Source: Actinomycetota bacterium
GTDB taxonomy: Bacteria > Actinomycetota > Acidimicrobiia > Acidimicrobiales > CADCSY01
Direction of reading: 5' to 3'
DNA length: 34,129 bases
Assembly (NCBI GenBank): GCA_004366205.1
Contig: SIRW01000049.1
Coordinates: forward strand, 1 to 34,129
How positions within the stretch are numbered: position 1 is the stretch's first letter; each line of letters opens with the position of its first letter. This document shows positions 854 to 10,893 of the stretch, one piece after another. The notes beneath the pieces were generated by a model that was given only the letters and a program-made list of their open reading frames with translations, did not search any database and was not told the DNA's origin. A program made the position numbers and the translations under genes.

Positions 854-1654
854 ATGGGTCGGCTCGAAGGCAAGGTCGCGCTCGTCACCGGCGCGAGCCG
901 CGGGATCGGCGAGGCGATCGCCCGCCGCTTCGCGGCCGAGGGTGCCGCGGTCGCGGTCACGGCCCGCACCGCCCGGGAGGGCGACCACCCCCTGCCCGGC
1001 AGCATCGCCGCCACGGTCGCGGCGATCGCGGATGACGGTGGCCGGGCGGTGGCCGTCGCCGCCGACCTCGCCGACCCCGCCGATCGGGCCCGGCTCGTCG
1101 AGGAGGTCGAGGCCGCGCTGGGCCCGGTCGACGTGCTGGTCAACAACGCGGCGGTCACCTACTTCGAGCCCGTCGAGCGCTTCGACGAGGGCCACTACCG
1201 GCTCATGTTCGAGGTGCAGGTGCGGGCCCCGTTCGAGCTCGCCCAGCGCGTGCTGCCGGGCATGCGCGAGCGCGGCGGCGGGTGGATCCTGAACATCTCG
1301 TCAGGCGCGGCGCGGCACCCCCAGGGCCCGCCCTACCAGGCGCGGGTGATGCGGGGCGGCACCGTGTACGGCATGTGCAAGGCGGCACTGGAGCGGTTCA
1401 CCACCGGGCTGGCGGCCGAGGTGCACGACGCCGGCGTCGCCGTCAACGTGCTGTCGCCCTCGGGCCTGGTGCGCACCCCCGGCGTGGTCCACCACGGCCT
1501 CGACCGCAACGTCCCCGAGGAGCTGCTCGAGCCGGTGGCGTGCATGGTCGAGGCCGCCCTGGCGCTCTGCACCGGGGATCCCGCCGAGCTGACCGGGCGC
1601 ATCGCCTACGCCCGGCCGCTCCTCGACGAGCTGGGCGTGGAGGTGGGCCGGTGA
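854..1654 (+). CDS. Short-chain dehydrogenase/reductase (SDR)
   Basis: This 266-residue protein has the classical SDR layout: nucleotide-binding motif TGASRGIG at 12-19, NNA at 97-99, Ser149/150 in NISS, and the catalytic Tyr172 and Lys176 in YGMCK. SDRs catalyse NAD(P)-dependent oxidation or reduction of hydroxyl/keto groups; the substrate is not evident. The start at 854 is preferred over ATG 824 because a purine-rich GAGGGGGGAA sequence lies just upstream and the Rossmann fold begins at once after it. The stop overlaps the GTG of the next gene by four bases, so the two are probably translated together. Pairing with an acyl-CoA synthetase suggests catabolism of a fatty acid, steroid or similar CoA-linked substrate; that is inference. 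Confidence 0.9.
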   Translation: MGRLEGKVALVTGASRGIGEAIARRFAAEGAAVAVTARTAREGDHPLPGSIAATVAAIADDGGRAVAVAADLADPADRARLVEEVEAALGPVDVLVNNAAVTYFEPVERFDEGHYRLMFEVQVRAPFELAQRVLPGMRERGGGWILNISSGAARHPQGPPYQARVMRGGTVYGMCKAALERFTTGLAAEVHDAGVAVNVLSPSGLVRTPGVVHHGLDRNVPEELLEPVACMVEAALALCTGDPAELTGRIAYARPLLDELGVEVGR

Positions 1655-3306
1655 GCGCCGCGCCCTCCGGCGCCGCCGAGGTCACCAGGGAGGCCCGGGC
1701 CGCGGCGGTCGCCTCGGGCATGACGCTCGCTCTGCACGCCGCGGTGGCGCCCGACCGGCCGGCGATCGTGTCGCCTCACGGGGACCGCACCTTCGGCGAG
1801 CTGAACGCCAACGCCAACCGGCTGGTGCGGGCGCTGCGGGCGCGGGGGATCGGCGCGGGCGACTCGGTGTCGCTCGTGTGCGGCAACCGGGCCGAGTTCG
1901 CCGAGGTCGTGGCCGCCACCAACCGCATGGGGGTACGGCTCACGCCGGTGAACTGGCACCTGACCGCCGGCGAGATCGCCTACATCCTCGACAACTCCGA
2001 GGCCCGGGCCGTGATCGCCGACGCCGCCTTCGCCGGCGCCGTGGGCGGGGCCGTCGAGCAGGCGCCCGCGGTCGAGGTGCGCCTGGCCGTGGGCGGCGCG
2101 ATCGGCGGCTTCGAGGCCTACGACGACGCGCTCGCCGGCGAGGCCGGCGACGACATCGACGATCCGGTGCTGGGGCGCACGATGCTCTACACGTCGGGCA
2201 CCACCGGCAGGCCCAAGGGCGTCGACCGCCCGGCGCCGCGCGACCGGGGCGAGGCCCGGGCCGCCGCCGCCACGCCGCTGGCGCTCGCCATCGGCGCCGC
2301 CAGCCGCTACGACCCCGCGACCGACCGCCACCTGTGCACCGGCCCGCTGTACCACGCCGCCCCGCTGGCCTTCTCGCTGTCGGGCCCGCTGAACGCGGGC
2401 GTCACGGTGGTGCTGATGGACCACTGGGACGCCGAGGAGGCCCTGCGGCTCGTCGACCGCCACCGCGTCACCCACACCCACATGGTCCCGACGATGTTCC
2501 ACCGGCTGCTCGCCCTCCCCGCCGAGGTGCGCGACCGCTACGACGTGTCGTCGCTGCGGTTCGTCATCCACGGCGCCGCGCCGTGCCCCGTCCCGGTGAA
2601 GCGGGCGCTGATCGAGTGGCTCGGACCCGTCGTGTACGAGTACTACGCCGCCACCGAGGGGGGCGGCACGTTCATCACGCCCGAGGAGTGGCTGGCCAAG
2701 CCCGGCAGCGTGGGGAAGCCCGCGGTCGAGGGTCTGGTCACCGTGCTCGACGGCGCCGGCGAGCCCGCGGGTCCCAACCAGATCGGCACCGTGTACTTCC
2801 GGGCGCCGGCCACCGGCCGGTTCCGGTACTACAAGGACGACGCCAAGACCGAGGCCAGCTACCGCGGGGATCGCTTCACGCTCGGCGACATGGGCTACGT
2901 CGACGACGACGGCTACCTGTTCCTCACCGGCCGGTCCGCCGAGCTCATCATCACCGGCGGCGTCAACGTCTACCCCGCCGAGGTCGACGCCGTGCTGCTC
3001 ACCCACCCCGCCGTCGGCGACGCCGGCACCATCGGCGTGCCCAACGAGGAGTGGGGCGAGGAGGTGCTCGCCGTCGTCGAGCTGCGCGCCGGCCACGAGC
3101 CCGGCGCCGCGCTCGCCGCCGAGCTGATCGAGCACTGCCGGGCCAACCTCGCGCACTACAAGTGCCCACGCCGGGTCGAGTTCGTCGACGAGCTGCCCCG
3201 CCACGACAACGGCAAGCTCTACCGGCGCCGGCTCCGCGAGCTGTTCGTGCCCGACGACGACCCCACCGGCCACCGGGCCGGCACCACCCCACCCTCCGCC
3301 CCCTGA
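1651..3306 (+). CDS. Acyl-CoA synthetase (AMP-dependent ligase)
   Basis: This 551-residue protein belongs to the ANL adenylate-forming superfamily. It shows the phosphate-binding motif TSGTTGRPKG at 181-190, YYAATEGG around 331-338, the GDMGYVDDDGYLFLTGR hinge region, and the C-terminal catalytic lysine in NGKLYRR at about residue 522. The expected reaction is ATP-dependent activation of a carboxylic acid to an acyl-AMP and then an acyl-CoA; the acid is unknown. The GTG start at 1651 overlaps the SDR stop in a GTGA arrangement, which indicates translational coupling. The family identity is firm. The substrate could be a fatty acid, a steroid side chain or an aromatic acid. Confidence 0.92.
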   Translation: MSAAPSGAAEVTREARAAAVASGMTLALHAAVAPDRPAIVSPHGDRTFGELNANANRLVRALRARGIGAGDSVSLVCGNRAEFAEVVAATNRMGVRLTPVNWHLTAGEIAYILDNSEARAVIADAAFAGAVGGAVEQAPAVEVRLAVGGAIGGFEAYDDALAGEAGDDIDDPVLGRTMLYTSGTTGRPKGVDRPAPRDRGEARAAAATPLALAIGAASRYDPATDRHLCTGPLYHAAPLAFSLSGPLNAGVTVVLMDHWDAEEALRLVDRHRVTHTHMVPTMFHRLLALPAEVRDRYDVSSLRFVIHGAAPCPVPVKRALIEWLGPVVYEYYAATEGGGTFITPEEWLAKPGSVGKPAVEGLVTVLDGAGEPAGPNQIGTVYFRAPATGRFRYYKDDAKTEASYRGDRFTLGDMGYVDDDGYLFLTGRSAELIITGGVNVYPAEVDAVLLTHPAVGDAGTIGVPNEEWGEEVLAVVELRAGHEPGAALAAELIEHCRANLAHYKCPRRVEFVDELPRHDNGKLYRRRLRELFVPDDDPTGHRAGTTPPSAP

Positions 3307-3314
3307 CCCATCCC

Positions 3315-3365
3315 GTTCTGGGTGGCGCTGGTTTCGCGTGGGTGGAACCTGGCCCACCCGGAACG
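3315..3365 (+). repeat. Two-tier hairpin intergenic repeat, copy A
   Basis: This 51-bp sequence shares about 40 of 51 positions with a second copy at 9752-9802. Its outer stem pairs 3314-3325 with 3354-3365 and its inner stem pairs 3330-3337 with 3342-3349 around the loop GTGG, allowing G-T pairs. It lies eight bases after the acyl-CoA synthetase stop, so it may also act as a terminator. Confidence 0.7.
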
Positions 3366-3428: not shown

Positions 3429-4952
3429 GTGAGCGCTGCGAGCACCGTCCCCCCGCTGCCCGACCCCCTCGAGCTGCTGGAGCGCTCGGCGTGGATCGGC
3501 GAGGTGCCCGGGCTGCGGGACGAGACCGCCCGGTGGCTGCGCGACCTGCCGGCCCGGCGGGCCCGTCTCGCCCGCCACGCCGCCCGGCTGGCCAGCCCGG
3601 TGCCCGACGCCGCGGCGGTGCGCGCCATCGCCCGCACCGGCCTGCGCACGGCGAGGCTCGCAGCACCCGAGGCGCTCACCGAGCTGCTGCGGGCGGGCGC
3701 GGCCTCGGTCGGCCTGGCTCGCCGCCGGTCCGTGGAGCGGTCCGGCACGGCGGTGCGGCGCGCCGAGCAGCTCGTGCGGGCCGGGGGGCCCGCCTACGTG
3801 AAGTTGGGCCAGTTCATCGCCACCGCCGAGGGGATCCTCCCCCGTGAGTGGGTCGAGGCGTTCGGGTGGTGCCGCGACGAGGTGCCCGCCCTGCCGCCCG
3901 ACGTCGCCCGCTCCGTCGTCCGGCGGGGCCTGGGCCGGCCCGTGCGCGACACGTTCCGGCACCTCGAGCGGCACCCGTTCGCGGCGGCGTCGATCGGCCA
4001 GGTGCACGACGCCGTGCTGGCCGACGGCACCGAGGTCGTGGTCAAGGTCCGCCGCCCCCGGCTCTACCGGCGCTTCAGCCGCGACATCCGGGCGATGGCG
4101 GTCGCCGCGGCCGCCGCCGAACGACTCTCCGCCGGTGCCCGGGCCGCCAACCTCTCGGGGTTCGTCTCGCTGTTCGCGGGCCTCGTGCTCGAGGAGCTCG
4201 ACTTCCGGCTCGAGTCGCTCAACATGGTGCAGCTGGGCATGGCGTCGGAGGACGCCGGCCATCACTTCGTGCGCTACCCCCGCCCGATCCCCGGCCTCGT
4301 CGCCCCCAACGTGCTGGTCATGGAGCGGGTGCCGGGCATCCGCTACACCGACGCCAGCGGCCGGTACCCCGACCTCGACGGCGACCGCCTCCTGCGGGTC
4401 GCCATCACCGGCGTGCTCGAGCAGCTGCTCATCTACGGCGTGTTCCACGGCGACCTGCACGCCGGCAACGTGCTGGTCACCCCCGACAGCACGTTCTCGC
4501 TCGTCGACTTCGGCATCGTCGGGCGCATCGACGCCGAGCAGCGCGCCGCCCTGGTGCGCTTCCTCGTCGCCTTCGCCGGCATGGACGTGGCCGCCATGCT
4601 CGACGCCATGACGGCCTTCGGCGCCATCCCCCGCGGCGTCGATCTGGCGGCCGTCACCGCCGAGCTCCAGGCCCGGGCCGACGCCGTCCCCTCCGGGACC
4701 GTCCGCTTCGACGAGCTCGCCGACGTCCTGGGGGAGGTCATCCGCATCCTCGTCGGCAACGGGTTCCGGTTGCCGTCCGAGCTCGTCCTGTTCTTCAAGA
4801 ACCTGCTGTACCTCAACGGTCTGGCCGCCGCCGTGGCGCCCGACGCCGACCTGCTCCGCGAGATCGAGCCGGTCTTCGGCTACTTCAACGACCGCTACGC
4901 CGATCAGATGGCGAGCATCCTCACCGGGGCCCGCTCCGGCCGGCCGGGGTAG
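3429..4952 (+). CDS. AarF/UbiB (ABC1) family atypical kinase
   Basis: This 507-residue protein has the hallmarks of the ABC1/UbiB/AarF family: KLGQ at 125-128 (the family-specific KxGQ motif), ASIGQVH and VVVKVRRP (the alanine-rich loop and the ATP-binding lysine), HGDLHAGN at 340-347 and the DFG triad at about 360-362. In other bacteria these proteins support quinone biosynthesis or lipid handling as ATPases or atypical kinases. The actinobacterial role is not established. The GTG start at 3429 gives a normal-length N-terminal helical region; upstream sequence in the same frame is the palindromic intergenic stretch. It precedes the SCO6745-like gene by ten bases, so they probably share a transcript. 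Confidence 0.88.
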   Translation: MSAASTVPPLPDPLELLERSAWIGEVPGLRDETARWLRDLPARRARLARHAARLASPVPDAAAVRAIARTGLRTARLAAPEALTELLRAGAASVGLARRRSVERSGTAVRRAEQLVRAGGPAYVKLGQFIATAEGILPREWVEAFGWCRDEVPALPPDVARSVVRRGLGRPVRDTFRHLERHPFAAASIGQVHDAVLADGTEVVVKVRRPRLYRRFSRDIRAMAVAAAAAERLSAGARAANLSGFVSLFAGLVLEELDFRLESLNMVQLGMASEDAGHHFVRYPRPIPGLVAPNVLVMERVPGIRYTDASGRYPDLDGDRLLRVAITGVLEQLLIYGVFHGDLHAGNVLVTPDSTFSLVDFGIVGRIDAEQRAALVRFLVAFAGMDVAAMLDAMTAFGAIPRGVDLAAVTAELQARADAVPSGTVRFDELADVLGEVIRILVGNGFRLPSELVLFFKNLLYLNGLAAAVAPDADLLREIEPVFGYFNDRYADQMASILTGARSGRPG

Positions 4953-7613: not shown

Positions 7614-8229
7614 CCTCACCCGGGGTCAGGCGGGGCCGCTCGAGTGGGCCGTCGCCAGCGAGGCCCTGGCCGGTGAGCAGTTCCTCGGCGACGCCTACCT
7701 GGTCCAGGAGGACGGCGACCGCTTGGTCGCCGCCGTCATCGACGGCCTCGGCCACGGCCAGGAGGCGGCCACGGCGGCCCGGCGCACGCTGCGGGCCTTG
7801 AAGGAGTCGACGGGGCGGGGCCTTGGGCTCGAGGCGATGGTGGCGCACTGCCACGAGGAGGTGCGGGCCACCCGGGGCGTGGTCATGACGCTCGTGGGCC
7901 TGGAGGGCTCGACGCTCAGCTGGGTGGGGGTCGGCAACGTCGAGGCGGCGGTCATCCGCGGCGACCGCCAGGCGCCCCGCCCGGTCGAGTCGATGCTGCT
8001 CAGCGGGGGCGTCGTCGGCTACAAGCTGCCGCCGTTGCGCTGCCGGACGACCGAGATCGGCCCCGGGGACCTGCTCGTGCTGGCCACCGACGGGATCCGC
8101 GCCGACTTCGCCAGCCGGGTCGTTCGTCACGATCCGCCCCATCTGATCGCCGGTCGGATGCTGCGCACGCTGCGGCTTCCGGGCGATGATGCGCTCGTGC
8201 TGGTGGCGCGCCACACCGGGGCCGGCTGA
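7606..8229 (+). CDS. rsbX: RsbX-like PP2C/SpoIIE phosphatase
   Basis: This 207-residue protein is a minimal SpoIIE-type PP2C domain, with VIDGLGHGQEAA supplying the metal-binding Asp and Gly and a later ATDGIRADF motif. Its size and place after RsbT match RsbX, which resets the stressosome by dephosphorylating RsbR and RsbS. It overlaps rsbT by eight bases and ends on the ATG of the next gene in a TGATG arrangement. The phosphatase call is strong; assigning RsbX rather than another small SpoIIE phosphatase rests on context. Confidence 0.8.
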   Translation: MADLTRGQAGPLEWAVASEALAGEQFLGDAYLVQEDGDRLVAAVIDGLGHGQEAATAARRTLRALKESTGRGLGLEAMVAHCHEEVRATRGVVMTLVGLEGSTLSWVGVGNVEAAVIRGDRQAPRPVESMLLSGGVVGYKLPPLRCRTTEIGPGDLLVLATDGIRADFASRVVRHDPPHLIAGRMLRTLRLPGDDALVLVARHTGAG

Positions 8230-9680
8230 TGCCCGAGCGCGCCGCGTTCCGCGAGGCCTACGCCACCGCCTTCCGGGGCTACCTCGAGGCGCCGGACGAG
8301 GAGGGCCTGCGGGTGGCCTACGAGCTCGGGCGGCGGGCGGTCGCCGTGGGGCTCTCCATGCTCGACCTGGTCGACGCCCACCAGGACGTGCTCGCCATGA
8401 TGATCGAGCGGCTCGGCATGCACCGGCCCCCCGCCGAGGTCGCGGCCGCCGGGCGGGCGTTCCTCAACGAGAGCCTGGCCACCTACGACATGGCGTCTCG
8501 GGGCTTCAAGGAGGCGTCCGAGGCCGCCCGGCTCGAGCAGCAGCACGCCGAGCGGCTCCGGCGGCTCGCCGAGGCGTTCCTCGAGCTCAACGGCAGCCTG
8601 CTGCCCGGCGAGATCCTGCGGATCGTGACCCAGCGGGCGAAGACGATCCACGACGCCGCCAGCATCGTCGCCCACCTCGACACGACCGCTGACGGTCGGC
8701 GGGTCCAGCTCACCCAGGTCGAAGGCGACGACCATCCCGTCGACGACGCGCTCGCCCGCGCCGCGCAGACCGAGGGCCGGCCGGTGCGAGGCGCCGGCCC
8801 GGCCGGCCCGGTGCTGGTCGCCCCGGTGCTGCGCAGCAACGGGCTGCCGCTCGGCGTCCTGCAGTTGAGCGGCCCCCGGTCGGGAGACTTCAGCTCCGGC
8901 GACGAGGCCATCCTCCTGCAGTTCGCGCTGATGACCGGCATCGCCCTCGAGAACGCCTTCCGCTACCAGCACGAGCGGTCGATCGCCGTCACGCTGCAGC
9001 GCAGCCTGCTGCCCGAGCTGCTCACCGCCGTGCCCGCCGCCAACGTGGCGTGCCGGTACCTGCCGGGCGGCGAGGGGGTCGAGGTGGGCGGCGACTTCTA
9101 CGACGTGATCGAGCTCGACGGCGACCGGGTGGCGCTCGCGCTCGGCGACGTGATGGGCAAGGGGGTGGCCGCCGCCGCGACCATGGGCCAGCTGCGGATG
9201 GCGCTGCGGGCCTATGCCACCGACGAACGGCCCCCGGCGGGTGTGATCGAGGGCCTCGGCCGGCTCATGAGCCTGCTGCGCAACGACGCCTTCGCCACCA
9301 TGGTCTACGTCGAGTGCGACACCCGCCGCGACGCCCTGCTGGTCGCCAACGCCGGGCACCCCCCGCCGGTGCTGCGCACCCCCGAGGGCGACGTACGGCT
9401 GCTCGAGGGCCCGGTGAGCCCGCCGCTCGGCGTCGCCTCCGGTGCGACCGGCGGCCAGCTCGAGGTGCCGCTCGAGCCGGGCGCCATGCTCGTGCTCTAC
9501 AGCGACGGGCTCGTCGAGGGCCACGAGCTCACGCTCATCGAGGGTCTCGACCGGCTGGTCGACGCCGTGCGCACCGGCCCCGACGACGTGGAGGGCATGT
9601 GCGAGCACCTCCTGCGCGCCCTCGGGGGCCACGCCGGCCGTGACGACACCGCCCTCCTCGCCTACCGCCGCACCACCTGA
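8229..9680 (+). CDS. rsbU: RsbU-like phosphatase (N-terminal sensor, GAF, SpoIIE PP2C)
   Basis: This 483-residue protein has three parts. About 1-95 is helical and resembles the RsbU N-terminal domain that binds RsbT. About 110-245 reads as a GAF domain (from EAFLELNGSLLPGEILRIV to the MTGIALENAFRYQHE linker helix). About 250-480 is a SpoIIE-type PP2C domain with VGGDFYDVI, LGDVMGKG, NAGHPPPVL, YSDGLVEG and DDTALL, so the metal-binding residues are present. It is the likely output of the upstream RsbRST complex, dephosphorylating an RsbV-like anti-sigma antagonist encoded elsewhere, since no rsbV, rsbW or sigma factor gene lies in the window. The ATG overlaps the previous stop by one base. 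Confidence 0.85.
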   Translation: MPERAAFREAYATAFRGYLEAPDEEGLRVAYELGRRAVAVGLSMLDLVDAHQDVLAMMIERLGMHRPPAEVAAAGRAFLNESLATYDMASRGFKEASEAARLEQQHAERLRRLAEAFLELNGSLLPGEILRIVTQRAKTIHDAASIVAHLDTTADGRRVQLTQVEGDDHPVDDALARAAQTEGRPVRGAGPAGPVLVAPVLRSNGLPLGVLQLSGPRSGDFSSGDEAILLQFALMTGIALENAFRYQHERSIAVTLQRSLLPELLTAVPAANVACRYLPGGEGVEVGGDFYDVIELDGDRVALALGDVMGKGVAAAATMGQLRMALRAYATDERPPAGVIEGLGRLMSLLRNDAFATMVYVECDTRRDALLVANAGHPPPVLRTPEGDVRLLEGPVSPPLGVASGATGGQLEVPLEPGAMLVLYSDGLVEGHELTLIEGLDRLVDAVRTGPDDVEGMCEHLLRALGGHAGRDDTALLAYRRTT

Positions 9681-9715
9681 CCCCGCCACCCCACCCGGTT
9701 TCGCGCACCCGCCCA

Positions 9716-9744
9716 CCCGCCAACCCGCTCGCCCGCCAACCCGC
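9716..9744. repeat. Short duplicated 13-mer in intergenic GC-rich tract
   Basis: CCCGCCAACCCGC occurs at 9716-9728 and again at 9732-9744, within a longer tract of CCCGCC/CCACCC words directly after the RsbU-like gene. It is probably slippage-prone simple sequence. It sits just before copy B of the hairpin repeat. Confidence 0.6.
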
Positions 9745-9751
9745 CCACCCG

Positions 9752-9802
9752 GTTCTGGGTGGCTGTGGTCTCACGCTGGTGAGACGTGGAGCACCCGGAA
9801 CG
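9752..9802 (+). repeat. Two-tier hairpin intergenic repeat, copy B
   Basis: This is the same length and orientation as copy A at 3315-3365; the first 11 and last 10 positions are identical. The outer stem pairs 9752-9761 with 9792-9801. The inner stem is a perfect 7-bp pairing of 9768-9774 with 9779-9785 around the loop GCTG. It lies about 70 bases after the RsbU-like stop and 85 before the patatin gene. Confidence 0.7.
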
Positions 9803-9887: not shown

Positions 9888-10763
9888 GTGGGTGTCGGGC
9901 TGGTGCTGGGGGGTGGCGGCGTCGTCGGCGTCGCCTGGGAGACCGGCGTGCTGGCGGGCCTGGCCGGGGCGCTGGGGTGGGACCCTGCGAGCTCGCCCGT
10001 TCTCGTGGGCACGTCGGCCGGCTCGATCGTGGGCGCCCAGCTGCTGCACGGGCGCACCCTCGACGAGCTCGTCGCCGCCCAGCGGGACCCGGCGCCGTCC
10101 CAGGGGGCCGGTCGCGGCGTGGCCCCGCCCCGCGATCCCGAGGCGGCCATGGAGGTGTTCCGCCTCTGGGGCGGTGCCGAGGAGATGGACGCCGCGACGG
10201 CGCGTGCCGTGGGCGCCGCCGCGCTCCGAGCGACCGGCCAGACCGAGGAGCAGATGCTCGAGATGTTCGAGCGCATGCTGCCGTCGGGTGAGTGGCCCGA
10301 CGCGGACCTGCGGGTGACCGCGGTGGCGGTGGAGACCGGTGAGCGGGTGGTGTGCACGCCGCGCTCCGGGGTGTCGCTCGTCCGGGCGGTGGCGGCGTCG
10401 TGCGCGGTGCCCGGCCTGTTCCCGCCCGTCTCGTTCGGCGAGGACGGCCACTTCCTCGACGGGGGGCTGTGGTCGGGCAGCAACGCCGACGTGCTCGCCG
10501 GATCGGGTGTCGATGCCGCTGTGTTCGTCGGGCCGATGAGCGCGGCGGGCGGCGGGATCGGCGAGCTGTCGGCCCGCTCACTGGAGCGGGAGGTCGAGCT
10601 GCTCGCCGCCGCCGGGATCGAGCTGCACACGGTCGTGCCCGGCGCTCGCTTCGCCGAGGCGAACCTGTCGCTCATGGACGCCACCCGCCGCGCCGAGGCG
10701 CTCGAGATCGGACTCGCCGAGGGCGCCGAGGCCGCCGGGCGCCTGGGGCACGTGCTCAGCTGA
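9888..10763 (+). CDS. Patatin-like phospholipase
   Basis: This 291-residue protein has the patatin signature: an oxyanion-hole glycine run GGGG at 8-11, the nucleophile elbow GTSAG at 41-45 with Ser43, and the catalytic Asp191 in LDGGLWSG. These proteins are Ser-Asp dyad lipid acyl hydrolases; bacterial substrates are mostly unknown. The GTG at 9888 places the GGGG loop directly after the first strand, as in the family, so the start is well supported. No signal peptide is present, which suggests a cytosolic or membrane-associated enzyme. It appears monocistronic and is followed by the tRNA gene. Confidence 0.88.
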   Translation: MGVGLVLGGGGVVGVAWETGVLAGLAGALGWDPASSPVLVGTSAGSIVGAQLLHGRTLDELVAAQRDPAPSQGAGRGVAPPRDPEAAMEVFRLWGGAEEMDAATARAVGAAALRATGQTEEQMLEMFERMLPSGEWPDADLRVTAVAVETGERVVCTPRSGVSLVRAVAASCAVPGLFPPVSFGEDGHFLDGGLWSGSNADVLAGSGVDAAVFVGPMSAAGGGIGELSARSLEREVELLAAAGIELHTVVPGARFAEANLSLMDATRRAEALEIGLAEGAEAAGRLGHVLS

Positions 10764-10819: not shown

Positions 10820-10892
10820 GCGCTCGTAGCTCAACGGATAGAGCATCTGACTACGGATCAGAAGGTTGGGGGTTCGAGTCCCTCCGAGCGCG
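10820..10892 (+). tRNA. tRNA-Arg (anticodon ACG)
   Basis: The sequence folds as a standard cloverleaf. The acceptor stem GCGCTCG (10820-10826) pairs with CGAGCGC (10885-10891), the D stem is GCTC/GAGC, and the anticodon stem TCTGA/TCAGA encloses CTACGGA with anticodon ACG. The T arm is GGGGG/CCCTC with loop TTCGAGT, and G10892 is the discriminator. CCA is not encoded. The 3' half, from the end of the anticodon stem onward, is duplicated at 32688-32732, so this gene is the integration site of the element to its right and its 3' half is now supplied by that element. Confidence 0.96.
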
Positions 10893-10893
10893 C
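10849..10893 (+). repeat. attL: left copy of the 45-bp att duplication
   Basis: It runs from the last bases of the 5' anticodon stem to one base past the tRNA discriminator. It matches 32688-32732 at 44 of 45 positions; the single difference is G10878 (T-loop) against A32717. Crossover must lie within this segment. Confidence 0.93.

Follow-up and report, generated by a model that had tools for sequence, protein, structure and literature searches.

We describe a family of dispersed palindromic elements in an actinobacterial genome and relate it to genes of the AbiEi-DUF559 kind, whose products join an AbiEi-type part to a Vsr-like nuclease. Palindromes of this build are associated with such genes, an observation in which we have high confidence. 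The reading we favour, and judge reasonably probable, is that the elements are putative duplex binding sites of the AbiEi-Vsr fusion, spread in the manner of REP sequences and RAYT transposases, here by an enzyme outside the HUH class.

The window, meaning the whole stretch of 34,129 nucleotides that was analysed, holds two copies of the element. The features in and around them are as follows.

3315 to 3364, no strand: palindromic element copy 1, 50 bp (23 + 4 + 23), imperfect (sequence read, covariance model)
3315 to 3337, plus strand: left half-site of copy 1, with outer block GTTCTGGGTGG and inner block GTTTCGC
3342 to 3364, minus strand: right half-site of copy 1, inverted
9752 to 9801, no strand: palindromic element copy 2, 50 bp, imperfect (sequence read, covariance model)
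9752 to 9774, plus strand: left half-site of copy 2, with outer block GTTCTGGGTGG and inner block GTCTCAC
9779 to 9801, minus strand: right half-site of copy 2, inverted
1651 to 3306: AMP-binding enzyme gene, its stop 8 bases 5' of copy 1
3429 to 4952: ABC1 kinase-like gene, beginning 64 bases past copy 1
8229 to 9680: SpoIIE/RsbU-like phosphatase gene, its stop 71 bases 5' of copy 2
9888 to 10763: patatin-like gene, beginning 86 bases past copy 2
10820 to 10893: tRNA-Arg (acg) gene

A sequence-only reading of this DNA had reported two copies of 51 bp; both are present, and each is 50 bp long, the 51st base falling outside the element. The arms are just as that reading gave them, with outer arms GTTCTGGGTG and CACCCGGAAC and inner arms GTTTCGC/GTGGAAC in copy 1 and GTCTCAC/GTGAGAC in copy 2. 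Single-strand DNA folding of the two copies gives z = -3.8 and -4.9 (plus strand). At the gathering score, no Rfam family matches the element, and tRNA-Arg is the only family found in the window. Immediately 5' of copy 2, at window positions 9697-9751, lie C-rich imperfect repeats (CACCCGCC, AACCCGC), possibly a decayed stretch.

The host genome, an assembly of 3.44 Mb in 119 contigs, contains the exact outer-arm pattern at 21 places, against 0 for the reversed control, and the same pattern with at most three mismatches at 57 places against 4. A search with a covariance model based on 50 copies gives 64 places at E<=0.01; the two on contigs C76 and C86 may represent a single locus that the assembly contains in duplicate. 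This search excludes the case of just two copies and, together with the 3'-end location described below, bears out the earlier suggestion of a genome-wide REP-like family. The copies are alike over 50 bp, beginning with GTTCT and ending with AGAAC, and their flanks are not conserved, being unrelated except for a C-rich left and a G-rich right side. Integron attC core sites come in the order RYYYAAC ... GTTRRRY, and an attC identity was rejected on the GTTCT start and AGAAC end of the elements. Tandem pairs, triples and one array of four also occur, mostly at a pitch of 61-63 bp and with linkers of 11-13 bp, the gaps in arrays being 4 and 11-13 bp. Over all loci, the centre spacings of 72 neighbouring pairs, which are mutually dependent and a few of which resemble coding-sequence matches, are mostly 61-62 or 70-72 bp and follow a period of about 10.25-10.5 bp, as would be expected of sites lying on one face of duplex DNA. 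In all tandem arrays, L112, L124 and L232 among them, the spacing changes in steps of about one helical turn. Isolated half-sites occur in the host genome at counts near the control and background rate, on which grounds half-sites as transposon ends were rejected.

A REP-associated transposase, which the earlier reading had proposed to look for, did not appear: Y1_Tnp (PF01797, RAYT) has 0 matches in the host genome, in a search whose 14-genome control worked, and it is present in 2 and absent from 10 of 12 further genomes searched (carriers and two non-carriers). The partner gene is of another kind, AbiEi-DUF559 and not RAYT. The first lead was a genome (G216) with elements on both sides of a gene carrying AbiEi_4 and DUF559 domains. 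DUF559 is present in 19 of the 25 genomes searched, and 60 of the 62 listed DUF559 places were fetched with up to 6 kb on each side; at 4 of these no gene was called and at 5 the gene was too close to the end of its contig, which left 51 for testing. The density of palindromes with the geometry of the element is about 0.75 per kb within 1.5 kb of the DUF559 domain, compared with about 0.37 per kb at 2-6.5 kb. At a similarity of at least 0.65, matching palindromes stand on both sides of 21 of the 51 DUF559 genes and of 0 of 184 control genes (500-1300 bp long, from the same stretches); at 0.60, the counts are 23/51 and 10/184. For 30 of the 51 a matched pair is absent at the 0.65 threshold, and four long proteins with a DUF559-like end (L206, L213, L219, L229) have no matched palindromes. 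A profile of 32 AbiEi-DUF559 proteins has members in 11 of 12 genomes, including 11 matches in the host genome. When 32 profile-found loci were scanned, some of them seen before and several cut by contig ends, 14 had matched palindrome pairs and several others one strong palindrome. Protein and palindrome distances are correlated (Mantel r 0.26, p 0.0002, 34 loci, two loci with internal stops left out), a correlation that vertical descent could also give.

For most dispersed families, the cognate gene adjoins a copy. G117 has only one gene of the AbiEi-DUF559 kind, with its GTTCTGTGATGG palindrome on both sides, and in G056, G192, G258, G006, G018 and G216 such a gene lies beside a copy of its own dispersed palindrome. 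G017 is an exception, as it has many GTTCTCGG palindromes, yet its two genes, that of L224 included, carry other palindromes. In the host genome, a gene at G000:C25:25-960 is followed by family elements at C25:1084-1133 and 1146-1195, members of the GGGTAC sub-group of the GTTCTGGGTG family. This gene is the candidate partner of that family; its contig begins 24 bases before the gene match, and one flank, the 3' side, is visible. A disrupted relative on C59 lies near two more family elements, with another gene in between. Two AbiEi-DUF559 members of the host genome, at G000:C59:20297-21229 and G000:C80:18817-19713, contain an internal stop and are probably disrupted genes. Further AbiEi-DUF559 genes of this genome, on C37, C93, C80, C91 and C23 (L264, L265, L266, L202, L189), are flanked by other palindrome families, and the palindromes of the C91 and C37 genes have solo copies elsewhere in the host-genome stretches examined. 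A AACCCGCGACGG palindrome that stands alone after the stop of a gene in G008 (L221:9972-10026) resembles those by the DUF559 gene on contig C196 of that genome (L209).

The AbiEi-DUF559 protein has about 300 residues, the C-terminal ones forming a nuclease of the Vsr/PDDEXK-like kind (Pfam DUF559 and REase_MTES_1575), with REase_MTES_1575 matches mostly below the curated cut-off. By profile, it matches the endonuclease-like protein 3hrl (6.5e-12), the mobile intron protein 3r3p, of the mobile-intron endonucleases named EDxHD, and Vsr. The protein encoded on C25 keeps the catalytic columns E, D, E, H, D and R. PADLOC AbiEi models are matched by 32 of 32 members, and in one member, followed residue by residue, the AbiEi match covers the N-terminal 180 or so residues. 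It is likely that the AbiEi part binds its palindrome and plausible that the Vsr-like part cuts at or near the site. That the nuclease drives the spread of the palindrome is a proposal on which we are evenly balanced, and repair copying is a possible route for it.

Location relative to genes was assessed at 47 loci with gene calls made in this analysis: the neighbouring genes are convergent at 22, of the same direction at 19 and divergent at 2, while 2 loci overlap a gene call and 2 are at contig ends. With the last four left out, 43 loci were set against a control, obtained by subtraction, of 101 further gaps, 60 bp or longer, from the stretches that hold them. Elements are enriched in convergent gaps (22/43 versus 15/101, p 1.5e-5) and depleted from divergent ones (2/43 versus 36/101, p 5e-5), so that the comparison with operon ends proposed in the earlier reading places them at gene 3' ends, with convergent gaps favoured. 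No gene family is common to the neighbours of the copies: any one Pfam family matches 2 of 75 at most.

These locations bear on the alternative that the palindromes are operators, with the AbiEi-type domain repressing its own gene and the dispersed copies acting as regulatory or roadblock sites, of a regulon or of a chromosome-organising protein, instead of being products of mobility. According to the available text of one study, AbiEi and Rv2827c use inverted repeats of 23 bp for autoregulation (PMC7319586), and the geometry and helical phasing of our elements, as well as the independent variation of their half-sites, would suit such duplex binding. However, the sites lie on both sides of the gene, so the promoter is not their sole location, and the dispersed copies avoid the divergent gaps in which promoters would be sought. 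Moreover, in G117 many near-identical 50-mers stand in unrelated flanks, which calls for a copying process. Operators appear rather unlikely to us as an explanation.

The change of inner-arm sequence between the two window copies had been read as covariation and as a sign of selection on a cruciform or RNA structure. It is real as a difference between these two copies; across the host genome, however, covariation is weak or absent, and the middle of the element avoids pairing. In a test on 31 non-redundant copies out of 50, near-identical ones having been removed, the inner column pairs 20/31 and 22/29 are complementary in 17 and 13 copies, versus 16.9 and 16.3 in shuffled controls, and pair 19/32 in 20 versus 16.1 (p 0.11). 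The variable inner columns thus do no better than after shuffling, and pair 9/42 alone does (21 versus 16.6, p 0.014). In the six middle columns, pairing falls below the shuffled level (69 versus 92.9 +- 5.6), the centre likewise being less complementary, and the changes in inner columns are T/C and G/A, uncoordinated between the arms except at 9/42. The counts of a covariation program agree, with 89.6% of cells paired versus 88.6% after shuffling and fewer pairs changed on both sides than in shuffled sets. Avoidance of pairing in the middle is also seen in G017 (p 0.008) and G056 (p 0.03), and not in G192 (p 0.45).

Between genomes, by contrast, covariation is strong. A pattern that fixes only GTTCT-N11-GTC ... 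GAC-N11-AGAAC matches 16 of 397 genomes of the host's order. Taking one copy from each, and including all 16, positions 6-11 are paired in 84 of 96 cells versus 34.4 +- 4.4 with shuffled arms (maximum 51 over 2000 shuffles), and the real copies show up to four pair types per column. Two of these genomes, G153 and G115, have almost no pairing and are probably chance matches, the palindromes of G275 and G151 may be unrelated hairpins, and the remaining 12 look genuine. Related Acidimicrobiia share the geometry of the element with other arm sequences, at a length of 48-50 bp in other genomes (46-50 bp overall); the palindromes of G117, G293 and G258 are perfect or nearly perfect through the middle, unlike the rest, and copies at the same place in G117 and G293 (L084, L074) show two-sided change. 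The arms therefore track each other between lineages and not between copies of one genome, as is expected of two half-sites for one protein, and a two-fold protein site explains the change between genomes as well as a hairpin does. Covariance as proof of an RNA or a cruciform was set aside on the evidence of shuffles and slid structures and of its weakness inside the genome.

The same data weigh upon the idea that the palindromes are selected as RNA, either as bidirectional terminators or as 3'-end hairpins that stabilise the mRNAs of convergent genes. Such a role would fit the 3'-end and convergent location, which is like that of REPs, for which an RNA role was proposed (PMC3733652, available text), and it would fit the strong predicted folding. 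Yet the hairpin is not followed by a T-run and its downstream flanks are G-rich, which led us to reject an intrinsic terminator; the variable inner columns change without compensatory pairing inside the genome, and the fixed offset from GTTCT to GTC across genomes is not something a terminator requires. Selection on RNA would also leave the association with DUF559 genes unexplained, and we regard it as very unlikely.

With regard to movement, a segment of about 1.17 kb in G117, made up of an element, a gene and half an element, corresponds to 18 unmatched bases in G293, and the host gene at C93:32898 is absent from the same place in G008. The junctions are not clean in either comparison, and deletion is a possible cause of both differences. 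The flanks of copies, read by eye and with no clean empty site among them, show no consistent direct repeat of the kind left by target-site duplication. Several AbiEi-DUF559 genes are found at corresponding chromosomal positions in different families of the order, with palindromes that differ (L211, L266 and L282; L177, L189 and L270), from which the gene seems to be mostly inherited and not hopping. One of these shared neighbourhoods adjoins an Oxidored_q4 gene. We give little credence to a view of the elements as MITE-like remains, left by a classical insertion sequence whose ends were 23 bp long, with the DUF559 gene as a passenger or homing-like insert and not the mover. The gene-plus-palindrome segment that G293 lacks and the profile match to a mobile intron protein would agree with it. 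On the other side, isolated half-sites are near the background rate and target duplication was not seen; within one protein family, the palindrome differs from member to member, and the copies have no other recurrent gene family beside them.

A GTDB scan with a strict element pattern gave no match, and a looser pattern matched 27 stretches, all in Microthrixaceae, Acidimicrobiia or 'Actinomycetes bacterium' assemblies bar one in Devosia, which lies inside coding DNA and was taken as chance. At the start of a contig of the MAG CSMAG_2939 (L061:1-100), the 25 bases before the palindrome complement those after it, probably an assembly fold-back. Among plasmids (72,556 records), one host protein (L189) found a single near full-length AbiEi-DUF559 relative, in Tsukamurella tyrosinosolvens (Mycobacteriales); a second query (L202) gave six partial AbiEi matches, in Thermus, and a third (L188) none. 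Phages (50,697 records) held no relative of the L189 protein, and viral contigs yielded remote nuclease-domain matches at most, or none. In T. tyrosinosolvens, matching palindromes flank the DUF559 gene on either side, and two further records of the same strain hold solo copies like them, one in a convergent gap and one in a divergent gap. The rule that joins gene and palindrome thus holds in another class.

To return to duplex sites of an AbiEi-Vsr fusion, each element would be a double-stranded site for two monomers of the AbiEi-type DNA-binding module, laid out as two inverted 23-bp half-sites around a centre of 2-4 bp; conserved sequence within a half falls into an outer and an inner block. 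This module is the N-terminal part and the nuclease the C-terminal part of the same protein. A single genome can carry several genes of this kind, with flanking palindromes that differ in sequence from gene to gene, and in some genomes one palindrome family has multiplied to tens of solo or tandem copies, mainly behind gene stops. The nuclease may nick or cut at the palindrome, and repair of the break might then copy the palindrome to new places in a REP/RAYT-like way. In its widest form, the proposal is of an undescribed class of selfish element in Actinobacteria, in which an AbiEi-type domain with a Vsr-like nickase spreads its own palindrome of 23-3/4-23 bp and occasionally its own gene, the REP/RAYT-like behaviour having evolved independently of HUH transposases and many orthogonal protein-site pairs existing per genome; we offer this tentatively, as a possibility we would stop short of endorsing. 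Few bacterial repeats are better known than REPs, with which one enzyme class, RAYT, is associated. If our reading is true, REP-like systems would have arisen more than once, as a further protein class, unrelated to RAYT, would have palindromes of its own. The numerous actinobacterial AbiEi/DUF559 genes now filed as antitoxins or unknowns would gain a concrete, testable function, and nature would offer a large set of orthogonal pairs, each a long, specific DNA site with the protein that binds it.

Literature searches in an open-access library, judged by titles and abstracts, brought up no paper that connects DUF559 or AbiEi-nuclease genes with palindromic repeats. As far as the available text of the REP papers goes, the likeness to REP/RAYT systems is close: both comprise short palindromes in tens of copies, mostly behind stops or between convergent genes, and both combine a palindrome family with a resident gene flanked by its own palindromes, with several pairs per genome (PMC2817692, PMC3733652). 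Flanking of the partner gene on both sides, a REP/RAYT trait, is likewise seen with AbiEi-DUF559 genes as a group, one side being visible for the GTTCTGGGTG family. Genes that keep their place while their palindromes differ also recall RAYT genes whose REPs diverge in place (PMC2817692, available text). On the other hand, REPs are defined as palindromes of 20-40 bp with an unpaired GTAG or CGTC tag (PMC3733652, as far as available), whereas our elements measure 46-50 bp and lack either tag, and the partner is an AbiEi-DUF559 (Vsr/PDDEXK) protein and not a Y1 HUH transposase, which is absent from the host genome. CGTC-tagged REPs, described in the same available text as a large class apparently without a dedicated transposase, are likewise palindrome families with no known transposase, although tag and hosts differ (PMC3733652). 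Caulobacter VsrA is a DUF559 protein (PMC12907096, in part), and it and the mobile-intron endonucleases (3r3p) have a related nuclease domain; the available portions of their descriptions do not report an AbiEi part or cognate palindromes. The closest geometry is that of AbiEi-type operators: the site of S. agalactiae AbiEi consists of two inverted repeats of 23 bp with 3 bp between them, and that of M. tuberculosis Rv2827c of four 23-bp repeats separated by 4 and 13 bp (PMC7319586, available text), while our elements are built as 23 + 4 + 23 with tandem linkers of 11-13 bp, a match noticed after the elements had been described. Unlike AbiEi antitoxins, however, the AbiEi part is here fused to a nuclease, and its putative sites stand at both ends of the gene and are scattered across the whole genome.
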